Notes under the pieces: model-generated | Databases searched by the model: none | Told to the model about the DNA's origin: nothing | Seen by the model: the letters and a program-made list of their open reading frames with translations, nothing else | Made by a program: the position numbers and the translations under genes | Shown here: positions 55,209 to 64,000 of the stretch, piece by piece | How the letters are laid out: every line of letters begins with the position of its first letter | How positions within the stretch are numbered: position 1 is the first letter of the stretch | From: Herbaspirillum sp. RTI4 | GTDB lineage: Bacteria; Pseudomonadota; Gammaproteobacteria; Burkholderiales; Burkholderiaceae_D | Direction of reading: 5' to 3' | NCBI RefSeq assembly: GCF_034313965.1 | Contig: NZ_JAVIWQ010000002.1 | Location: 496,001-560,000, forward strand | DNA length: 64,000 nucleotides

Positions 55209-56315
55209 CTAGATGCGCATTGGCATGACGACGTATTTGAAGTCGGCTTGCTCAGGCACGGTGATCAGTGCGGATGAGTTGGCGTCGCCCAGCGCGATGT
55301 TGACGCTGTCGGACTTCAGATTGTTGAGTACGTCGAGCAGATAGGTGACGTTGAAGCCGATGTCGACGCTGTCTCCGCCGTAATCGATTTCCAGTTCTTC
55401 GACGGCTTCTTCCTGATCCGCATTGGTGGAGCTGATCTTGAGGCTGCCCGGTGCAACAATCCAGCGCACGCCCTTGAACTTGTCGCTGGTCATGATGGCG
55501 GCGCGTTGCAAGGAACGCAGCAATTGATCGCGTCCGATGGTGAAGTTGTTTTTGTAGCCTTTAGGCACTACGCGGGTGTAGTCGGGGAATTTGCCCTCGA
55601 CCAGCTTGGAAATCAGTTCGATATCGGCAAAGCCGAGCTTGACCTGATTGTTGGCAATGTCGATCTGCACCGGCTCATCGCTGTCGCCTAATAAGCGTTG
55701 CAGTTCGATGATGGTCTTGCGCGGGATGATGACTTCCTGACGCGGGAAATCCTGTTCGGTTTCGACCTGGCAGAAAGCCAGACGATGACCGTCAGTGGCC
55801 ACGGCGATCACGTTTTTGCCTTCGACGACGAGCAGCAATCCGTTGAGGTAATAGCGGATGTCCTGTTGCGCCATGGAGAAATGAACCATGTTGAACAGGT
55901 GCTTGAGCGTTTTTTGCGGCAGGCTGACGGAGGCGTTGTAGTGCTCGGCCTGGGCTACGGTCGGAAACTCTTCCGCTGCCAGCGTTTGCAGTGCGAAGCG
56001 CGACTTGCCCGATTGCACCGTAAGGCGCTTGTTGGACAAGGTCATGGTGACTTCGCCGGTGTCAGGCAGGGCGCGCAGGATGTCGAGCAGTTTGCGCGCG
56101 GCGACGGTGGTGGCGACGCTTTCACTGCCGGAACCGACTTCTGCGTGCGTCGTGATCTGCACTTCTATATCGGTAGACAGAAAGGAAACCTTTTCGCCGT
56201 CTTTGCGTATGAGGATATTGGCCAGAATCGGCAATGTGTGCCGACGCTCGACAATACCGCTCACGATTTGCAGTGGCCGGAGAATGGTGTCTCTGCTGGT
56301 TTTGACCAATTGCAT
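55209..56315 (-). CDS. dnaN: DNA polymerase III beta subunit (sliding clamp)
   Basis: A 368-residue protein of three repeated clamp domains. It starts MQLVKTSRDTILRPLQIVSGIVERRHTLPILANILI and ends YVVMPMRI, both canonical for DnaN. The dimer rings DNA and tethers the replicase. It lies 323 bases downstream of dnaA and 174 bases upstream of gyrB, all on the minus strand and co-directional with a fork leaving the candidate origin at 63.4-63.9 kb. Confidence 0.98.
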   Translation of the reverse strand: MQLVKTSRDTILRPLQIVSGIVERRHTLPILANILIRKDGEKVSFLSTDIEVQITTHAEVGSGSESVATTVAARKLLDILRALPDTGEVTMTLSNKRLTVQSGKSRFALQTLAAEEFPTVAQAEHYNASVSLPQKTLKHLFNMVHFSMAQQDIRYYLNGLLLVVEGKNVIAVATDGHRLAFCQVETEQDFPRQEVIIPRKTIIELQRLLGDSDEPVQIDIANNQVKLGFADIELISKLVEGKFPDYTRVVPKGYKNNFTIGRDQLLRSLQRAAIMTSDKFKGVRWIVAPGSLKISSTNADQEEAVEELEIDYGGDSVDIGFNVTYLLDVLNNLKSDSVNIALGDANSSALITVPEQADFKYVVMPMRI

Positions 56316-56638: not shown

Positions 56639-58015
56639 TTAACCCTTCAGGGTCTGCTCAAGCACATGCAACTCATGATTGCATTCGGGATTCTTGAGGC
56701 GGTCCGCTGTGATCTTGCGTACCGCATGCAAGACGGTGGTGTGATCGCGACCACCGAACAAGTCGCCGATTTCCGGCAAGCTTTTTTGTGTCAGTTCTTT
56801 GGCCAGGTACATGGCGATCTGACGTGGCCGCGCAATGTTGGCTGGCCGTTTTTTGGAGTACATGTCAGCGACTTTGATATTGAAAAAGTCAGCCACGGTC
56901 TTTTGGATGTTCTCTACTGAAACTTGTCGGTTCTGCACCGAGAGCAAGTCCTTGAGAGCATCCTTGACTACGTCAATGGTGATGTCCTTGCCGTGAAAAC
57001 GCGAGTACGCCAGAATTTTGCGCAACGCGCCTTCGAGTTCGCGCACGTTAGAGCGCAAATGCTTGGCGACGAAAAAGGCGACGTCATCGCTCAGCTGCAC
57101 CCCTTCCTGCGTGGCTTTTTTCATCAGGATGGCAACCCGCATTTCAAGCTCGGGCGGTTCGATCGCTACCGTCAGGCCGGAGTCGAAGCGCGAAGTGAGG
57201 CGCTCGTCCATGCCGGTGATTTCCTTGGGGTAGGTATCGCTGGTGATGATGATTTGTTTTTTGGCGGCGATCAGCGCTTCGAATGCGTAAAAGAATTCTT
57301 CCTGCGTGCGGCTCTTGCCGCCGAAAAATTGAATATCGTCAATCAGCAACAAATCGAGTGAATGATAGTAGCGCTTGAAGTCGTCGAAACCCTTGCGCTG
57401 ATAGGCCGTCACCACGTCGCGCACATATTGCTCGGCGTGGATGTAGCGGATTTTTGCCGACGGATTGTCGATAAGGACCTGGTTGCCGATTGCGTGAATC
57501 AGATGGGTTTTGCCCAATCCGACGCCGCCGTAGAGAAATAGCGGGTTGTAGGACACCCCGGGATTATTCGCGACCTGGGTTGCGGCGGCGCGCGCCAGCT
57601 GGTTGGCTTTTCCGGTGACGAAGTTATCGAAAGTCAGGACATCGTTGATGCGCGACAGGTCTTGACGTGGCACAACCGGTGCTTGCGCTTCCGGAGACCT
57701 CTGTTGAGACGCGACGTAAGAAGCCGCCTCGGTATTACCGGCCGGATAAGCAACGGGCGCGGTTTTTTTAGCGCCGCGTGGATCGAGGACGAATTGCACA
57801 TCGATCGCCATTTCCCAATACGATGCGGCGATTGCTGTAATACGGCTCGCGAACTGCGTCTTGACCCAGTCGAGCTTGAAGCGATTAGGCGCGGCAATGC
57901 GCAGCCGGCCGTCTTCGTAGTCCAGCGGTACCAGCGGCTTGATCCAGGCACTGTACTGCTGGGGCGTCAGCTCTTGCTCTAATTGCGCAGAGCAAGCCTG
58001 CCAGAAATTTTCCAT
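56639..58015 (-). CDS. dnaA: Chromosomal replication initiator protein DnaA
   Basis: A 458-residue initiator. Domain I (1-~80) begins [26 protein letters not shown] short Ala/Pro/Gln-rich domain II follows. The AAA+ domain III has Walker A GGVGLGKT (163-170) and Walker [10 protein letters not shown]. Domain IV carries the DnaA-box signature [15 protein letters not shown]. The start at ATG 58015 matches the conserved N-terminus; the frame runs 58 codons further upstream without conservation. Unlike most relatives, its upstream neighbour is a glutamine amidotransferase, not an oriC/rpmH region. One DnaA box lies upstream. Confidence 0.98.
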
Positions 58016-58219
58016 GAATCTACTTATGACAAGAGGTGAAAAGCGCATCCGCTGCCAACGAGTGGCAGCAGACAATATGGGGGTACGGGGTGGTATTGAT
58101 TCAGGAACTGCCAGCTGTTTCAGCTGCCGCGTGCTATTAATTTTACCGGCATGCCTGTTCAACGAAGAGGACATGGCCGCTTGATGCACGGTAGGTCATT
58201 TTACTCCCGACAGCGAAAG

Positions 58220-58228
58220 TTATCCACA
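58220..58228 (+). promoter_or_regulatory. DnaA box upstream of dnaA
   Basis: A perfect TTATCCACA, 205 bases before the dnaA start codon and 50 bases before the amidotransferase end. It is single and is not followed by DnaA-trios or an AT-rich stretch, so autoregulation of dnaA is more likely than origin function. Confidence 0.75.
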
Positions 58229-63407: not shown

Positions 63408-63416
63408 TGTGGATAA
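63408..63416 (-). promoter_or_regulatory. DnaA box, copy 1 left
   Basis: TGTGGATAA, the reverse of the consensus TTATCCACA, facing the box at 63565. Confidence 0.85.
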
Positions 63417-63564
63417 GCCTGGGGATAAGCTGTTGAGCATTATTGGACAACTCCCGCCATTTACCCCCCTTCCGTTTTTATCCCAAACTCATCCTGCGTT
63501 CATACAGAGTTTACAAGTCACTTATTTTCGCGATAAGTACCTGTATATAAAGAGGAATAGTGAC

Positions 63565-63614
63565 TTATCCACAATTTAGCGAATGCCTACTATTATTACT
63601 ATTTATATATATAA
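63565..63614 (+). other. Basal origin unwinding element 1: DnaA box, spacer, DnaA-trios, AT palindrome
   Basis: TTATCCACA (63565-63573), a 13-base spacer containing GCGAATGC, then five trios on the lower strand read 3' to 5' as GAT GAT AAT AAT GAT (63587-63601), then the palindrome TTATATATATAA (63603-63614). This order and polarity match the DnaA-box/DnaA-trio unwinding system described for bacterial origins. Confidence 0.82.
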
Positions 63615-63722
63615 GCTGTTAACTTAATAAATCAAAAACGGGATTTTTTCAAACTGAGGGGATTTTTTCTTTTTTTAAAAACGGAAAACAACTTTATTCA
63701 AAACAAGTCTTGTTAATAACTC

Positions 63723-63731
63723 TGTGGATAA
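63723..63731 (-). promoter_or_regulatory. DnaA box, copy 2 left
   Basis: TGTGGATAA, inverse consensus, 315 bases after the matching box of copy 1 and facing the box at 63868. Confidence 0.85.
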
Positions 63732-63867
63732 GCTGTTAGCTATTAATGAACAACTAACAAAAAAATCGCCTTGTCTTTTTTTATCCTGAATTCATCCTCC
63801 TTCCATACAGAGTTTACGAAGCATTTATTTTCGAACCAAGTACTTGAAAATAAAAGAGAAAAACCAG

Positions 63868-63917
63868 TTATCCACAAATTTTGCACTCCCTACTATTACT
63901 ACTATTTATATATATAA
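63868..63917 (+). other. Basal origin unwinding element 2: DnaA box, spacer, DnaA-trios, AT palindrome
   Basis: TTATCCACA (63868-63876), a 13-base spacer, lower-strand trios GAT GAT AAT GAT GAT (63890-63904), then TTATATATATAA (63906-63917). Box-to-trio spacing is identical to element 1 although the spacer sequence differs, which suggests both copies are kept functional. Confidence 0.82.
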
Positions 63918-64000
63918 GCTTTTAATTTAAGAACACGATAAAGCCATCTCAAACCAAAACATCCCGAAACAACATATTTGGAAACTCAAACCGACAGTTT

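Follow-up and report, generated by a model that had tools for sequence, protein, structure and literature searches.

Repeated E. coli-like oriC units at the likely chromosome origin of Herbaspirillum sp. RTI4 and in related Oxalobacteraceae

If two origin-like units lie side by side at one chromosomal site, does replication start from only one of them, or can it start from either? This question is raised by the window analysed here, a 64-kb stretch of the genome of Herbaspirillum sp. RTI4 (64,000 nucleotides in all), whose last 600 bases hold two diverged direct repeats, in the same direction and in a +303 register. A sequence-only reading of the window had described two direct repeats with DnaA boxes, DnaA-trios and a TA palindrome, and all of these elements were recovered, letter for letter. 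The features of the two repeats, hereafter units A and B, are as follows.

63408..63633, plus strand: origin unit A, an oriC-like module with the complete E. coli-type layout (match to profile R1, 70.6 bits)
63408..63416, minus strand: perfect inverted DnaA box of unit A, at -157 from the forward box
63420..63428, minus strand: near DnaA box of unit A, TGGGGATAA, one mismatch, at -145
63534..63546, minus strand: IHF-like site of unit A at -31, weak (2 mismatches)
63565..63573, plus strand: perfect forward DnaA box of unit A (position of E. coli box R1)
63587..63601, plus strand: five DnaA-trios of unit A, CTACTATTATTACTA (CTA CTA TTA TTA CTA)
63602..63614, plus strand: AT-rich stretch of unit A, with the 12-bp TA palindrome TTATATATATAA at 63603-63614
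63711..63936, plus strand: origin unit B, an oriC-like module with the complete E. coli-type layout (match to profile R1, 69.2 bits)
63711..63719, minus strand: degenerate inverted box of unit B, TGTTAATAA, at -157
63723..63731, minus strand: perfect inverted DnaA box of unit B, at -145
63837..63849, minus strand: IHF-like site of unit B at -31 (1 mismatch)
63868..63876, plus strand: perfect forward DnaA box of unit B
63890..63904, plus strand: five DnaA-trios of unit B, CTACTATTACTACTA (CTA CTA TTA CTA CTA)
63905..63917, plus strand: AT-rich stretch of unit B, with the 12-bp TA palindrome TTATATATATAA at 63906-63917

Compared in the +303 register, units A and B are identical at 162 of 226 positions: 9/9 in the forward box, 27/28 in the trios plus palindrome and 6/13 in the spacer. 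Forward box and trios are separated by 13 nt in each unit, so the earlier statement that the spacer has diverged while its length and the register of the trios were kept is correct. On the lower strand, the trios of unit A read 3'-GAT GAT AAT AAT GAT-5'. An inverted box had also been claimed for each copy; both copies indeed have one, but the position of the perfect box is -157 in A and -145 in B, and the perfect inverted boxes of the two units are thus not positionally equivalent. A perfect box followed 10-20 nt on by at least four trios was found twice in the window and in none of 200 first-order Markov copies, and the window holds 5 perfect DnaA boxes against a mean of 0.24 in such copies. 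No third complete copy was detected in a filters-off profile scan of the 9 kb around units A and B.

The position of the units on the chromosome was judged from the GC skew of the 3.92 Mb contig, taken in 20-kb samples that are not continuous and are locally noisy. The skew was negative in 6/6 blocks over 1-496 kb and mixed over 496-615 kb; all 11 blocks between 640 kb and 2.42 Mb were positive, and all 5 from 2.6 Mb onwards were negative. Its sign therefore flips twice, around 0.56 Mb and between 2.42 and 2.60 Mb, at mutually opposite places on the contig. Units A and B (559.4-559.9 kb of the contig) lie within the zone of the first sampled switch. Since the sign changes around the units and again opposite them, this place is likely to be the chromosome origin of Herbaspirillum sp. 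RTI4, which lends support to the chromosomal role that had been proposed for the module from its letters. A dif-like pattern had no match in the genome at up to 3 mismatches, and the terminus is placed by the sampled skew. A proximity search that paired plasmid records with dnaA gave no match.

The genes on the left side of the units include those of the initiator and the sliding clamp.

55209..56315, minus strand: dnaN, DNA polymerase III beta clamp (Pfam DNA_pol3_beta domains)
56639..58189, minus strand: dnaA (TIGR00362, 570 bits), about 5.2 kb from the origin
58220..58228, plus strand: single perfect DnaA box just upstream of dnaA
61293..63305, plus strand: AsmA-family gene, the left neighbour of the origin

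Both dnaA and dnaN lie 5-8 kb from the origin units. In 79 of 80 loci, too, one perfect DnaA box precedes the aligned dnaA sequence by about 40-350 bp (the remaining locus, L021, starts at dnaA); the box before dnaA probably reflects dnaA autoregulation. To the right of the window come LysR regulator, aldehyde dehydrogenase and GMC oxidoreductase genes. The same kinds of genes, an MTA/SAH nucleosidase gene or an AsmA-family gene adjoin the units in the tested loci L203, L214, L219, L220, L223, L234, L237 and L292; in the last of these, from genus g23, it is likewise an AsmA-family gene that borders the origin units. With such similar neighbours, the tested relatives look as if they carry the same origin locus.

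The organization of the units was then compared across 100 related modules. Profile R1, a sequence-only profile of 138 positions derived from an alignment of 44 modules, starts about 85 nt ahead of the forward box and runs up to and including the TA stretch. For the counts in the 100 modules and for the tree described below, L228 was left out (its second match was poorly placed), and L224 duplicates L215. IHF-like sites were scored against the IHF consensus. A site on the reverse strand, starting at -31 from the forward box, had at most one mismatch in 96 of the 100 modules (no mismatch in 50, one in 46 and two in 4), while the next best offset gave such a site in 1/100; the site of unit A is one of the four with two mismatches. 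An inverted box at -154 to -160 was perfect in 69 modules, with one mismatch in 28 and two in 3. A perfect forward box was absent in 10/100. Among the modules outside the R1 training set (n=76, matched by name and hence approximate), the IHF site was present in 73 and the inverted box in 74, each with no more than one mismatch. The IHF site falls within R1 and the position of the inverted box does not; as the former is part of the profile and most R1 training loci had been collected by a search for paired boxes, the IHF site and the inverted box are both partly ascertained.

This layout closely recalls the oriC of E. coli (DUE - R1 - IHF site - ... - R4), in which a forward box lies beside an AT-rich stretch, the IHF site is found on the same strand as here and the outer box is inverted. 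In the E. coli K-12 oriC stretch, the IHF site starts exactly at -31 from box R1, as in the units, and the perfect inverted box is located at -180, as against about -157 here. The sequence of the E. coli IHF site is printed in PMC4285127. Thus, an IHF site at a fixed distance and an inverted outer box (97/100 modules, at most one mismatch) are shared with the E. coli type, whereas its GATC sites and SeqA sequestration are not: the region 63408-63936 contains no GATC site, and a search for SeqA gave no match in the RTI4 genome (the control matched in E. coli only). A gene for IHF alpha is present in the genome, with a score above the cut-off. The units further differ from E. coli oriC in their trio runs and in that most of the sampled relatives have two to three copies. 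The earlier description of a repeated unwinding module therefore holds as regards the tandem duplication but understates the repeat, which is larger and comprises the whole layout of an E. coli-type oriC. Each repeated unit looks like a complete oriC of this type rather than an unwinding element only, and the units appear to be E. coli-like in layout but not in SeqA/GATC regulation.

Compared with the E. coli-like layout, the trios are less constant among the modules. The longest row of [C/T]TA triplets after the forward box, taken as the trio run, comprised five trios in 10 of the 100 modules; runs of four (31 modules), three (34), two (22) and one (3) made up the others, so that 25/100 had fewer than three trios in a row. 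In a 2021 survey, a basal unwinding system (BUS) was recorded in 1755 of 2070 predicted origins (PMC8287927). According to our reading of the published BUS rule, at least three 3'-NAN-5' triplets have to start within 16 nt of the DnaA box; 23/100 modules conform to it, mainly because in many relatives the clean trios start about 17-18 nt from the box. Units A and B both conform, with a 13-nt spacer and five trios each, and in this they resemble the BUS of Bacillus subtilis and others, as judged by the criteria given in PMC8287927. They differ in that the whole unit is duplicated here and in that the distance rule extends to only 23 of the 100 related modules; the BUS passages that were found do not mention several BUS per origin. 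The box-trio architecture that had been assigned to the repeats is therefore present in both window units, but a 13-nt spacer with five trios is not a rule of the family. The mean longest trio run was 2.4 in copy class 1 (n=15), 3.9 in class 2 (n=8) and 2.7 in class 3 (n=9).

Herbaspirillum frisingense and Herbaspirillum sp. alder98 (loci L022 and L024) have a degraded TA palindrome in copy 1, and copy 2 keeps TATATATA. The degraded palindromes read TTATAAACAG and TTATACACAG, respectively, beside a forward box that is still perfect; the trios of copy 1 are short in L022 and number four in a row in L024.

The sequence-only reading had called two complete modules at one origin unusual, which is not the case among the relatives. 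A match to profile R1 was found in 352 of 385 genomes of the family; by a hand count, 33 genomes had none, 49 had one and 303 had two or three (the closeness of the matches was checked in part of these genomes). All 49 named Oxalobacteraceae genomes, taken from 80 loci, match R1, and 48 of them contain at least two units: 36 have two and 12 have three, the weak distant third matches in G392 and G395 being left out of the latter count. The one exception is Herminiimonas contaminans, whose single unit lies at a contig end. Within the genus of the window, two matches were found in 31 of 34 genomes, one in G292 and none in two assemblies (of 820 and 450 contigs). The exact paired-box pattern occurs in 281 of 392 family genomes, and its reversed control gave 0 among the matches listed. 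The listed members of the small-genome genus g5 have one match each, and those of another such genus, g7, one match or none; larger genomes mostly have two or three, a comparison controlled neither for phylogeny nor for profile sensitivity.

G292 carries one complete unit and the first half of another. The half unit, recognized by a perfect inverted box (L220, 9649-9657) and its surroundings downstream on the minus strand, comes after the complete unit; it has no second forward box and looks like a natural loss within the genus of the window.

At the level of the order, an R1 match was found in 69 of 200 genomes, mostly single and weak. Two matches within 5 kb, some of them weak, were detected outside the family in G466, G496, G531, G532, G556, G570 and G592. 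With a profile that had not been tuned to these groups, origin-like modules paired in the same direction were also observed in L246 and L247 (family f49) and in G466 and G592 (family f27). Since R1 was trained inside the family, the lower counts outside it partly reflect sensitivity, and we do not claim repeated units as exclusive to the family.

The arrangement of the units was examined in 67 genomes and in regions picked to cover genera and layouts, so that the layout tallies are not population frequencies. In the 40 distinct regions chosen, the units had the same direction in 25, were convergent in 7 and divergent in 1, and 7 had a single unit. Among the named multi-unit genomes (n=48), only Noviherbaspirillum suwonense has convergent units. 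The starts of neighbouring units are separated by as little as 273 bp in G297 and by as much as about 3.6 kb in Rugamonas sp. CCM 8940. An ORF of 653-1041 aa, in the direction of the trios, lies between the copies in 13/13 regions (L199-L210 and L236). The tested ORF between copies, from Massilia sp. BJB1822, codes for a GGDEF-EAL protein. A nucleosidase gene separates the units in L214, L223 and L292; that in L292, flanked by convergent units, is of the PNP_UDP_1 family (nucleosidase-like). Thus, the geometry is rigid inside the unit, while the spacing, number and orientation of the units vary. Such free spacing and orientation point to self-sufficient units rather than to one composite machine.

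Convergent units are found in 6 of the 7 regions picked from genus g23 (L292-L297, from genomes G127, G140, G161, G183, G172 and G194). In five of these six (not in L297), the units lie in inverted repeats of 169-302 nt with 95-98% identity, which contain the whole R1 stretch. These near-perfect repeats suggest either that the origin copies undergo gene conversion or that the segment is invertible.

The history of the copies was followed in a tree of the 100 modules, with FastTree's own local values as supports. Copy 1 of 14 genomes of the Massilia, Duganella, Rugamonas and Pseudoduganella type forms one clade (0.978; Massilia alkalitolerans, whose copies group by genome, was left out of this test), copy 3 forms one clade of nine that includes Janthinobacterium (0.988), and copy 2 falls into two clades, not one (0.971 and 0.985). 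Copy 1 together with Janthinobacterium makes a single split only once copy 1 of Undibacterium aquatile is added (0.797). Copies 1 and 2 form distinct clades in six genomes of Herbaspirillum (0.928 and 1.0; H. autotrophicum, Herbaspirillum sp. Sphag64 and Herbaspirillum ST 5-3 were left out of these two tests) and in genus g28 (0.995 and 0.915). In H. autotrophicum and Herbaspirillum sp. Sphag64, the copies do not sort fully by position. Copy 2 of L219 stands beside G000, the genome of the window, with a support of 0.028, i.e. none. Overall, in 34 of the 42 genomes with several copies, the copies fail to come together as a single genome-specific group, and the tree suggests that they are old in several lineages. 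They are each other's closest relatives in the other 8 (M. alkalitolerans, G000 with a support of 1.0, Glaciimonas, L221, L227, L235, L238 and Undibacterium terreum), which indicates that duplication or homogenisation was recent there.

Conservation was compared within five copy classes (15, 8, 9, 8 and 8 modules). Pairwise identity was 1.00 in the forward box, 0.81-0.87 in the trio/TA stretch, 0.72-0.86 in the IHF site, 0.55-0.64 in the spacer, 0.50-0.69 between the IHF site and the box and 0.64-0.70 in the rest of the upstream part. The pattern that had been named as telling against an origin module, relatives with variable trios between conserved flanks, was thus not seen: in each of the five classes, the trio/TA stretch is more conserved than the spacer.

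We lean towards the view that the locus of Herbaspirillum sp. RTI4 is a cluster of redundant, self-sufficient oriC units, two of them in tandem. Under this model, DnaA would bind the boxes of a unit and IHF would bend the DNA; starting at the inner box, DnaA would then extend along one strand on the AT-rich side and melt this stretch, where the helicase would be loaded. Either unit could start a round, and its neighbour would then be copied passively. Each unit would be able to open and to load helicase, and their use would be shared. The trio/TA stretch, conserved in each copy class, argues against mere DnaA reservoirs, and the varied spacing and orientation argue against an obligatory composite. 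On the other side stands the inequality of the copies, namely the weak IHF site of unit A, the differing trio runs and the degraded copy-1 palindromes, together with the 10 modules that lack a perfect forward box and the 8 genomes, that of RTI4 among them, whose copies cluster by genome. For the Oxalobacteraceae at large, the broader proposal, a multi-unit origin with 2-3 complete oriC units of which any can fire and whose distinct copies are kept across genera in several lineages, is in our judgement finely balanced. GC skew cannot resolve copies 300 bp apart. Where the copies are about 3 kb apart, the skew at 4-fold sites of the gene between them was computed in 13 genomes, and in five with 100 kb of context; in these five the medians were -0.147 for the intervening gene, -0.165 for plus-strand genes on the right side and +0.015 for minus-strand genes on the left side, with no clear leading/lagging contrast between the sides.

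The same inequalities are what one would expect if only one unit were the start site and the other a DnaA reservoir or timing element descended from an origin copy. Reservoir or timing elements of this sort in E. coli are datA and DARS. The weak IHF site in unit A, the unequal trio runs of the copy classes and the degraded copy-1 palindrome in two Herbaspirillum genomes speak for this reading. A reservoir, however, needs boxes only, yet the trio/TA stretch is held at 0.81-0.87 against 0.55-0.64 for the spacer in five copy classes, and the trios and palindromes of A and B agree at 27 of 28 positions. We therefore regard this alternative as unlikely, though it deserves to be kept in mind. A less probable reading makes the units one composite origin whose parts must cooperate, e.g. 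with one helicase loaded at each, somewhat like a bipartite origin. The frequency of multiple units across the family would agree with this, as would the convergent pairs of several genera, which place trios on opposite strands, an arrangement natural for the loading of two helicases. An obligatory partnership is difficult to reconcile with a spacing that varies more than tenfold, with the genes that intervene in many cases, with same-direction units in 47 of 48 named multi-unit genomes and with the 49 of 385 genomes in which one unit was detected, including the member of the window's own genus with half of another. Finally, that the second copy is a functionless, transient by-product of recombination seems very improbable: A and B cluster together, as do the copies in 7 other genomes of the 42, and the near-perfect inverted copies of genus g23 show exchange between copies, but copy-wise clades have been kept across genera with element-specific conservation.

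Redundant, self-sufficient units would also differ from the arrangements described so far. Bipartite origins, as in B. subtilis and Helicobacter pylori, likewise combine two DnaA-box clusters, which in some cases are separated by a gene, but the DUE is found in only one of their sub-regions (PMC4285127); units A and B both have trios and a TA stretch, and thus do not show the restriction of the DUE to one cluster. More than one oriC-like region per chromosome is known from the putative double origins of DoriC and from the two autonomously replicating elements of Pseudomonas aeruginosa (PMC4403523). The DoriC cases, as presented there, concern a few representative species, were recognized by box counts and mostly involve regions far apart, whereas the complete units described here are clustered and frequent across the family. 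In Cupriavidus metallidurans, 3 perfect DnaA boxes within 213 nt have been noted beside the skew switch, about 90 kb from dnaA (PMC2864759). In the literature covered, largely at the level of abstracts, we found no description of complete oriC units that occur repeatedly in Oxalobacteraceae. As far as we have seen, the parts of the origin are known and their frequent multi-unit arrangement has not been described.

With two or more units per origin, it becomes possible to ask which one is used and why the spares are kept. If the multi-unit origin is real, chance or regulation would have to pick the firing unit in each round, and the unfired neighbour would have to be kept from re-firing without SeqA. 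The family offers natural variants with one, two or three copies, in tandem, convergent or divergent order and 0.3 to 3.6 kb apart, and copies about 3 kb apart make the use of individual units resolvable by sequencing. Such variants could serve to test what constitutes a minimal oriC, how once-per-cycle control operates with several units, and whether the loading of two helicases depends on which way the trio strand runs.
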